DNA of 39,635 bases from Myxococcales bacterium (GTDB lineage: Bacteria; Myxococcota_A; UBA9042): the NCBI GenBank assembly GCA_009692425.1, contig SHZF01000040.1, positions 1 to 39,635 on the forward strand, in the 5' to 3' direction. Each line of letters opens with the position of its first letter. Position 1 is the stretch's first letter. The notes under the pieces are model-generated. The model was not told the origin of the DNA. It saw nothing but the letters and a program-made list of their open reading frames with translations, and made no database searches. Below, piece by piece: positions 5,511 through 26,174 of this stretch. The translations under genes were made by a program, and so were the position numbers.

Positions 5511-5539
5511 AGCCTACCGGCTGGGCGCCGGCGTGTCAC
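5511..5539 (-). promoter_or_regulatory. candidate leaderless promoter of the CGDGxC lipoprotein
   Basis: On the minus strand GTGACA (5539-5534), 17 bp, TAGGCT (5516-5511), then 6 bp and the ATG at 5504. With a normal -10 to start distance, transcription would begin at or next to the A of the ATG. The -35 box directly abuts the conserved part of the dispersed repeat. Confidence 0.45.
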
Positions 5540-5707
5540 GACCCCGATCCGCCGCCTTCGGCCCAGCTCTGCGTTGTCGCTGCGGAATCGGCGTTCGAAG
5601 TACCGGGTGTATGTCTTCACGCCGATTCCTTGCTCCGCCTTGTCGAGCGCAAGCGAGCCAACCGGCAACGCGCATCCGAATTTGGCGACCGGGGATGGCA
5701 GTCGGTG
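5512..5707. repeat. dispersed palindromic repeat, copy 1
   Basis: First of two related copies in the window (the other is 25057-25286). Block A, 5540-5561, is identical over 22 bp to 25089-25110. Block B, 5574-5642, matches 25177-25245 at 64 of 69 positions with no gap. Block C, 5672-5707, matches 25250-25286 with about five changes. Block B contains a perfect 11-bp inverted repeat (GGAATCGGCGT / ACGCCGATTCC). On the minus strand blocks B and A read as one open frame, AEQGIGVKTYTRYFERRFRSD followed by NAELGRRRRIGV. Most of the intergenic stretch 5505-5862 is this element; in the remaining 5708-5834 I see no gene. Confidence 0.8.
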
Positions 5708-5834
5708 GTGGATCTTGGACCAGCGCACGGTTGACCTCGCGCGTTCCGCCCGCCAAGATGCCGACGCCTTGACGAAGCTTCGGGGGCGCACTGAGCCGAT
5801 CGCTAGGCCGTCCGCCTCCTCCCTTCGCATCGGG

Positions 5835-25056: not shown

Positions 25057-25286
25057 CCTACCGGGCTGTCGCCCCGCAAGGGGTCCATGACCCCGATCCG
25101 CCGCCTTCGGTGCAACTCTGTCCCGCTTGAGTCGACTCACCGAGGCGATTCGGCCCGTTCCGGGCACGCGGGTCCCTTGTCGCTGCGGAATCGACGTTCG
25201 AAGTACCGGGAGTACGTCTTTACGCCAATTCCTTGCTCCGCCTTGATCTGCATCCGAATTCGGCGGCCGGGGAGGGTCAGTCAGTG
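25057..25286. repeat. dispersed palindromic repeat, copy 2, with a ~60-bp insertion
   Basis: Second copy of the element at 5512-5707. The shared blocks are in the same order and orientation, again between divergent genes. Relative to copy 1 it has about 60 extra bp between blocks A and B (about 25121-25176), containing a perfect 12-bp palindrome TGAGTCGACTCA (25128-25139), and lacks about 26 bp between blocks B and C. The right end supplies GGGGAGGG and the GTG start of the CruF-like gene. The left end shares the C(C)GGTAGGC sequence that in copy 1 holds a -10 box. It fills nearly the whole gap 25027-25283. Confidence 0.8.
25137..25253 (-). CDS. 38-residue ORF inside dispersed repeat copy 2
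   Basis: Starts ATG at 25253 and encodes MQIKAEQGIGVKTYSRYFER, then RFRSDKGPACPERAESPR, and stops at 25137. The first ~25 residues are the conserved repeat-encoded peptide; the tail comes from the inserted DNA. The frame is supported by synonymous differences relative to copy 1 but no Shine-Dalgarno is seen. It may be the remnant of a longer repeat-encoded peptide rather than a gene. Confidence 0.25.
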   Translation of the reverse strand: MQIKAEQGIGVKTYSRYFERRFRSDKGPACPERAESPR

Positions 25287-26174
25287 AGTCCTGAGACGAC
25301 GACGGTCGAATGGTTGTGCATCGCTGTGCTGGCTCTGGCGGTGGCGCTGCGCACCCGGGGACCGGCCATTGACTGCGCTGCCGAGCGCGCCATCGGGATC
25401 GGCCTCGGTGCCTTGTTGACGGAACACTCGTGCATCTCAGCCTATGGCTTCTACCACTACTCCCCGGGCTGGCATGGGTGGGCGGGCCATGTGCCGGTCT
25501 TGATCGGCGCCATCTGGGTCGTGGTCGTGCTGTCGGCCGAAGACATCGCTGGCGCAGTCTGGCCGAACGTCACGCCCGGTGCACGCCACGCAGCCCTCGT
25601 CGGGTCCTTGGTCGTGGCCGACGCAGCGCTGGTCGAACCGATTGCCACCCACGCGGGCTTGTGGCTCTGGCACGAGCCCGGCGCGTTCGGCGTACCGTGG
25701 ATCGGCATGCTCGGCTGGGGCTGTTTTGCGGCCGCCGCGTCGTACTGGGGGCGTGCCGTACCCCGCATTCCACTGGGCAGGCTGGCGACTCCCACGGGGG
25801 CCCACCACGACGTGCTCGGCGCTACCATCCGGGTGGTCGGCGTCGGCGTCGCGAGTGCTGCAACGACACACGTGCTGCTTTTGGCCGCGTGGTGGGGTGC
25901 CTTGCGCTGGACCGGGCGCAGCGAGGCTCCCGTCGTCTGCGTCTCGGCGGCGGCATGGGCGTGTGCGTGCGTGGCCGTGCTGGCCTGCGCATCGTTGCGT
26001 CGGCGGGTCCCCTTTGTCGTCCTGGCGCCGCGCCTCGCACCCGCGGCCTTCTTTTTTGGCCTGCTCGCGGCATCGCCGGCGCCCGCGGCGCTCATCGCGT
26101 ATGCTGCTGCGTTCGTGCCGCCCTGGGCCGCACTTGCCGTCGGCGGCGCGCGCAAGAATCGCACGTGTGTTTGA
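25284..26174 (+). CDS. CruF-like carotenoid biosynthesis protein (DUF422 family)
   Basis: A 296-residue integral membrane protein with about seven to eight hydrophobic segments. It fits the carotenoid biosynthesis/CruF family (PF04240), whose members hydrate the terminal psi end of acyclic carotenoids (gamma-carotene or bisanhydrobacterioruberin C-1',2' hydratases). Seen features are YGFYHYSPGWHGWAGHVPVL followed by IGAIWVVVV, and later VEPIATHAGLWLWHEPGAFG with VPWIGMLGWG, which match the family's FxxYxYxxxLG...VP...W and D..EP.A...G.W.W...G.Y...P..N..GW patterns. The GTG at 25284 has GGAGG about 8-9 bp upstream. Divergent from the UbiA prenyltransferase gene. The C-terminal ~100 residues are less conserved and Ala-rich. 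Confidence 0.72.
   Translation: MSPETTTVEWLCIAVLALAVALRTRGPAIDCAAERAIGIGLGALLTEHSCISAYGFYHYSPGWHGWAGHVPVLIGAIWVVVVLSAEDIAGAVWPNVTPGARHAALVGSLVVADAALVEPIATHAGLWLWHEPGAFGVPWIGMLGWGCFAAAASYWGRAVPRIPLGRLATPTGAHHDVLGATIRVVGVGVASAATTHVLLLAAWWGALRWTGRSEAPVVCVSAAAWACACVAVLACASLRRRVPFVVLAPRLAPAAFFFGLLAASPAPAALIAYAAAFVPPWAALAVGGARKNRTCV

Follow-up and report, generated by a model that had tools for sequence, protein, structure and literature searches.

The window analysed here is the whole 39,635-nt stretch, contig 74 of host genome G000 (a bin of 137 contigs totalling 4.94 Mb and ~96% complete), and it carries two copies of a dispersed repeat in intergenic DNA. A 69-bp segment of this repeat, block B, lies at 5574-5642 on the minus strand and returns, ungapped and with five differences, at 25177-25245 on the same strand, as the original prediction had stated. 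Its other direct observations were confirmed as well: an 11-bp inverted repeat within the block (GGAATCGGCGT at 5584-5594, pairing with ACGCCGATTCC at 5619-5629), an open frame on the minus strand, and two C-to-U stem changes in the second copy. Searching the host genome with the 69-bp block returned 27 matches with E-values down to 8e-30; hence, the block recurs far beyond chance.

Although block B is real, it was delimited too narrowly. Flank alignment places the repeat unit at 5542-5718 and 25091-25294. According to the alignment of copies, the common form of the unit is ~152 bp long and reaches 177 bp when a 29-nt module takes the place of ATCT; it begins with CCCCGATCCGCCGCC and finishes with GGTGGTGGATCCTGG, and a further segment noted earlier, block A (RRRRIGV), is its left end. 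Copy 1 (5542-5718, 177 bp, with the minus strand as hairpin strand) is of the longer form, with the module at 5643-5671 (+25 bp), and its ends are common to other genomic copies. A similar module is also present in elements of a related genome, G017. The left terminal repeat, CCCCGATCCGCCGCC at 5542-5556 on the plus strand, has matches in the genome as a 20-mer and matches the left end CCCCGTTCCGCCGTC of an IS1380 element in the related genome G037, and the right terminal repeat at 5704-5718, CCAAGATCCACCACC on the minus strand, matches the sequences CCAGAATCCACCGCC and CCAGGATTCACCGCC with which IS1380 elements of relatives end on the right. Between them, a long imperfect hairpin on the minus strand covers 5542-5694 (~125 nt without the module), supported by its fold z-score and by the same fold in 46 relatives; the hairpin covariance model R2, described below, matches at 5542-5667 with an E-value of 8e-12. 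Block B is the inner part of this hairpin. Where copy 1 has the 11-bp inverted-repeat stem, sister subfamilies have other self-complementary stems.

Copy 2 (25091-25294, minus strand) was delimited by sequence, alignment and a left-end match at 25091-25110. Its left arm is interrupted by ~56 nt of foreign sequence (25121-25176), which has a single match in the genome and is thus single-copy. A candidate GTG start (25284) of a carotenoid-biosynthesis gene (PF04240) lies inside its right end, and the insertion may supply the 5′ end of that gene. Neither window copy is flanked by a clear target duplication. Both are decaying insertions which encode no peptide.

Copies in the host genome and the apparent reading frame

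The window subfamily has about 27 copies in the host genome. The left-end 20-mer has 83 genomic matches, compared with 2 for a reversed control, and the right end has 130 compared with 23. Both ends are thus far commoner than their controls, and several subfamilies have them in common. These sister subfamilies are C (centre GGTTGGCGGT..ACCGCCAACC; 27 copies aligned), D and others. The elements measure 150-177 bp and have imperfect terminal repeats, GATCCGCCGCC and GATCCACCACC.

For target duplications, the 4 bases to the left of each element were compared with the 4 bases to its right, using randomly re-paired flanks as control. Exact 4-bp duplications were present at 15 of 24 window-subfamily copies (shuffled flanks: mean 0.66, maximum 5), at 12 of 32 sister-subfamily copies (mean 0.73, maximum 4) and at 11 of 14 elements in the relative G017 (mean 0.86, maximum 6). 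Among the 24 window-subfamily copies, no duplication longer than 4 bp was seen. The multiple copies, the defined ends and the 4-bp duplications bear out the suggestion that this is a mobile palindromic element. It is short (under about 500 bp), has terminal inverted repeats and a fixed 4-bp target duplication, and carries no transposase of its own, as there is neither coding constraint nor a Pfam match over the element frame. By sequence definition, the repeat is a MITE with IS1380-type ends.

Some related forms differ in length. Forms of 44-62 bp (L075, L094, L110, L102) consist of hardly more than the two ends, and some have their own 4-bp duplication. Another copy (L027, about 1568-1846; contig 13 of the host genome, near 101431-101776) is divided by another sequence of ~268 bp nested within it, which is flanked by the 7-bp repeat CCACATG, has the ends TCTCAAGATCC and GAATCATGAGA, and shares a 95% identical 116-bp piece with contig 45; this insertion is probably another small transposon. 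Around position 1469 of L018, a copy appears by eye to break a gene resembling a small nucleotidyltransferase. Beyond the host, no match to the element was found among PLSDB plasmids, a strict pattern scan of 84,980 species genomes returned 2 contigs with partial taxonomy, and a phylum-wide pattern based on the GTAC loop was too strict, as only three of its matches were real elements, all from one family.

The original prediction had taken the block to encode a conserved peptide, since four of the five differences between the window copies fall at third codon positions of the minus-strand frame. For one pre-chosen frame this pattern has P = 0.045; however, it is not notable because six frames are open. 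In 18 copies of the window subfamily, 72 substitutions are distributed 30/20/22 over codon positions 1, 2 and 3 of this frame, 22 changes are synonymous compared with 17.5 expected from random placement, and in-frame stops occur in two of the copies (2.8 expected). A tblastn search with the peptide against 84,980 species genomes detected no relatives. The peptide is not kept; it is a product of chance, and the element is not coding.

The minus-strand hairpin within and between subfamilies

The hairpin had likewise been thought to be preserved in the inserted copies. Within subfamilies (2,464 pair cells), stems are substituted like loops (6.6% and 7.2%, respectively), G-C pairs have turned into G.U as often as into A.C (53 and 54), and double changes number 13, with 10.7 expected under independence. 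Inserted copies decay neutrally and, consequently, what the two stem changes of copy 2 had suggested about its hairpin does not generalise. Within the subfamily, the outcome that the original prediction had named as its own refutation is thus observed, as codon positions are hit evenly and compensation is absent. Between subfamilies and genomes, however, compensation is very strong, which could not be seen from the window alone.

The minus-strand fold of the subfamily consensus has a z-score of −6.4 against shuffles, compared with −2.5 for the plus strand. Ten subfamily sequences can be folded into one common minus-strand hairpin with the same asymmetric internal loops, in which 87.7% of cells pair (slid controls, 30-43%) and both sides have changed in 22 of 48 pairs, corresponding to 59 cells compared with 19.9 after shuffling. 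The covariance model R2 was built from these ten sequences and searched in 110 related genomes, 23 of which contain the hairpin. At least about 30 were counted in each of G000, G017, G009 and G081, and 22 in G045. Forty-six sequences share one 125-nt hairpin with compensatory changes in 43 of 48 pairs; the 426 compensatory cells compare with 119 after shuffling, a number reached by none of the 500 shuffled sets, and pairing in slid controls is 31-40%. G.U outnumbers A.C on the minus strand by 166 to 37 in this alignment, which was fitted to the model, so that the derivation of structure and alignment on the minus strand partly favours the bias; counted by columns among the ten sequences, the numbers are 15 and 6 (P = 0.08). 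The central stem changes fast (mean identity 0.64), compared with 0.84 for the internal loops, of which AG in CAAGGCGG and CAA in CAACGCAG are fixed across families. The original prediction was right in choosing the minus strand as the strand with the relevant fold, and the G.U bias favours this strand.

No Rfam 15 family matches the window when gathering scores are applied, and none matches 5530-5730 at E-values up to 1. At another locus (L163), only the tRNA is real among the Rfam matches. The genome G081, from another family of the phylum, has some 29 hairpins that belong to this class (L190-L199), at which no IS1380-like ends were seen; a different transposase may carry them.

The simplest reading of these data is that the active element needs its fold, as RNA or as single-stranded DNA, and that the fold may serve transposition, read-through protection or transcript processing. 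Paired stem changes could also originate by arm-to-arm repair, i.e., template switching in a quasi-palindrome, with no selection on the folded strand. We consider this origin unlikely, although in its favour the central stem is wholly different between subfamilies and yet complementary. Such repair would, however, erase the asymmetric internal loops, which instead persist with conserved bases; it predicts Watson-Crick pairs rather than a surplus of G.U over A.C, and no excess of paired changes is found within subfamilies.

Terminal repeats and IS1380-type transposases

Members of the IS1380 family usually generate a short duplication of 4-5 bp. We took the 4-bp duplication, together with ends starting with CC, to point to this family and for this reason searched the relatives with PF13701. 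An intact transposase of 525 aa in G014 passes the NCBIfam model NF033539 (transpos_IS1380) with 197.6 bits at a cut-off of 180; the G014 sequence is identical to contig VGRO01000101, a ‘Deltaproteobacteria bacterium’ from a metagenome. The insertion sequence ends with GGCGGTGAATCCTGG, followed by AATCA, and has a degenerate left end (CCGCAATTGACCGTC). Directly to its left, in tandem, is a complete element of the window kind; the 15-bp right end GGCGGTGAATCCTGG is common to both, and AATCA occurs three times, on both sides and between MITE and insertion sequence. The idea that the G014 hairpin is the insertion sequence’s own left end was rejected, as the insertion sequence starts after AATCA and the two units are arranged in tandem.

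In G017, which is rich in such elements, both IS1380 copies start with CCGCGATCCCCC, like most MITEs of that genome, and the IS1380 ends in G037, CCCCGTTCCGCCGTC and GGCGGTGGATTCTGG, are the asymmetric pair of the window; no target duplication was found at the G037 copies. The ends of the element thus match IS1380-family ends in three related genomes (G014, G017 and G037). The transposase is intact in G014 and fragmentary in G017, and both genomes carry such MITEs. No IS1380 transposase is detectable in the host bin (~96% complete, 137 contigs), where the gene may have been lost or may not have been assembled. Based on the matching ends, the duplication length and this co-occurrence, we infer that an IS1380-type transposase moves the element in trans.

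Our preferred explanation, to which we assign a probability of roughly 85%, is a non-autonomous MITE of ~150 bp that would be mobilized in trans by an IS1380-type transposase, with a fold constrained in active source elements and with inserted copies that decay. The terminal repeats are asymmetric (left, CCCCGATCCGCCGCC; right, read inward, CCAGGATCCACCACC) and match IS1380-family ends in relatives. By these ends the transposase would cut out or copy the element, and its insertion at a new site would produce the 4-bp target duplication. The interior is a ~125-nt hairpin not derived from the insertion sequence. Because its stems change in pairs between lineages and certain internal-loop bases stay fixed, active source elements are probably constrained as a single-stranded minus-strand fold, either RNA or single-stranded DNA, whereas copies decay neutrally once inserted.

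Hairpins beside tRNA genes and comparison with known systems

In five species of one genus, all of the same family (G005, G009, G013, G016 and G020), the hairpin is located directly before tRNA-Trp (L171, L172, L178, L179 and L180, about 1501-1628). Where checked, it is co-oriented with the transcribed strand, with rpmG upstream and a gene resembling secE afterwards. Among the five orthologues, both sides have changed in 9 of 48 pairs, corresponding to 10 cells compared with 2.0 after shuffling (not reached in any of 500 shuffles; slid versions give at most 2). Judging by this comparison, the fold appears to be maintained at the rpmG/tRNA-Trp site, which is the best candidate for host use of the element. 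A hairpin of the same class also occurs between tRNA-Ser(CGA) and tRNA-Ser(GGA) in another relative (L174 and L059).

The compensatory changes at rpmG/tRNA-Trp in five species would also be expected if the hairpin were a host-encoded RNA regulatory element, such as an attenuator or a processing signal, that had spread by host need. We judge this improbable, since target duplications and neutral decay characterise most copies, unlike a needed host signal, and retention at rpmG is a single case. A wider form of the MITE explanation is more plausible, although we would put it at a little under even odds: a ~125-nt hairpin module on IS1380-type MITEs in many genera of the phylum, its internal-loop bases fixed and its stems free to change but always paired, would be required by the element in folded form, as RNA or single-stranded DNA, and at least once it would have been recruited by the host, as a transcribed rpmG/tRNA-Trp spacer still under selection for its fold.

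Bacterial MITEs (reviewed in PMC10969869), e.g., QMITE1 and QMITE2 of Coxiella, are similarly short elements without transposase that occur in numerous intergenic copies, are bounded by terminal inverted repeats and target duplications, and give a strongly folding transcript. The element described here differs by its IS1380-type ends and by an interior formed by one long hairpin, which is kept across distant genomes while its stems covary and its internal loops stay fixed. The term IS1380 is absent from the text of that review (PMC10969869), and a search of a partial literature collection found no IS1380 MITE. With IS1380 insertion sequences themselves, the element has the terminal repeats and the short duplication in common, but it lacks a transposase gene and its interior is unrelated. 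ERIC elements are intergenic imperfect palindromes of about 127 bp; compared by description only, they are alike in size and palindromic form, but differ in ends and host group.

REPINs are multicopy hairpins whose fold is kept by compensatory changes and which depend on a transposase elsewhere (PMC3116915). This similarity, together with the many intergenic copies, would fit a REP-associated tyrosine transposase that copies the hairpin in the form of single-stranded DNA. Such an origin is very improbable, however, as REPINs have no target duplication, whereas the clear 4-bp duplications and defined terminal repeats found here indicate a transposase of the DDE type, the element has ends that match IS1380, and the hairpin is longer with fixed internal loops. 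Least probable of all is a protein-coding palindromic element with a selected minus-strand peptide and in-frame insertion, as proposed by analogy to Rickettsia palindromic elements, which are likewise palindromic, dispersed and about 150 bp long: neither window copy has a stop in the frame, four of their five differences are indeed synonymous, and the outer parts are open too, in G+C-rich DNA, but the analogy fails in the absence of a conserved peptide or coding constraint over 18 copies, and the stems, hence any peptide, are replaced in sister subfamilies and relatives while pairing stays.

MITEs as a kind are already known, and the surprising part is the hairpin conserved across the phylum. 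They are usually seen as decayed transposons without function beyond their ends. Here, one elaborate fold persists in a MITE family of distant genera despite changes at nearly all stem bases, even though the inserted copies decay. Selection on the active element thus becomes separable from host-level selection, and what the fold does becomes testable. The family represents an unnamed class of repeats linked to IS1380 and offers a possible example of such a hairpin having been recruited into an operon of ribosomal-protein and tRNA genes.
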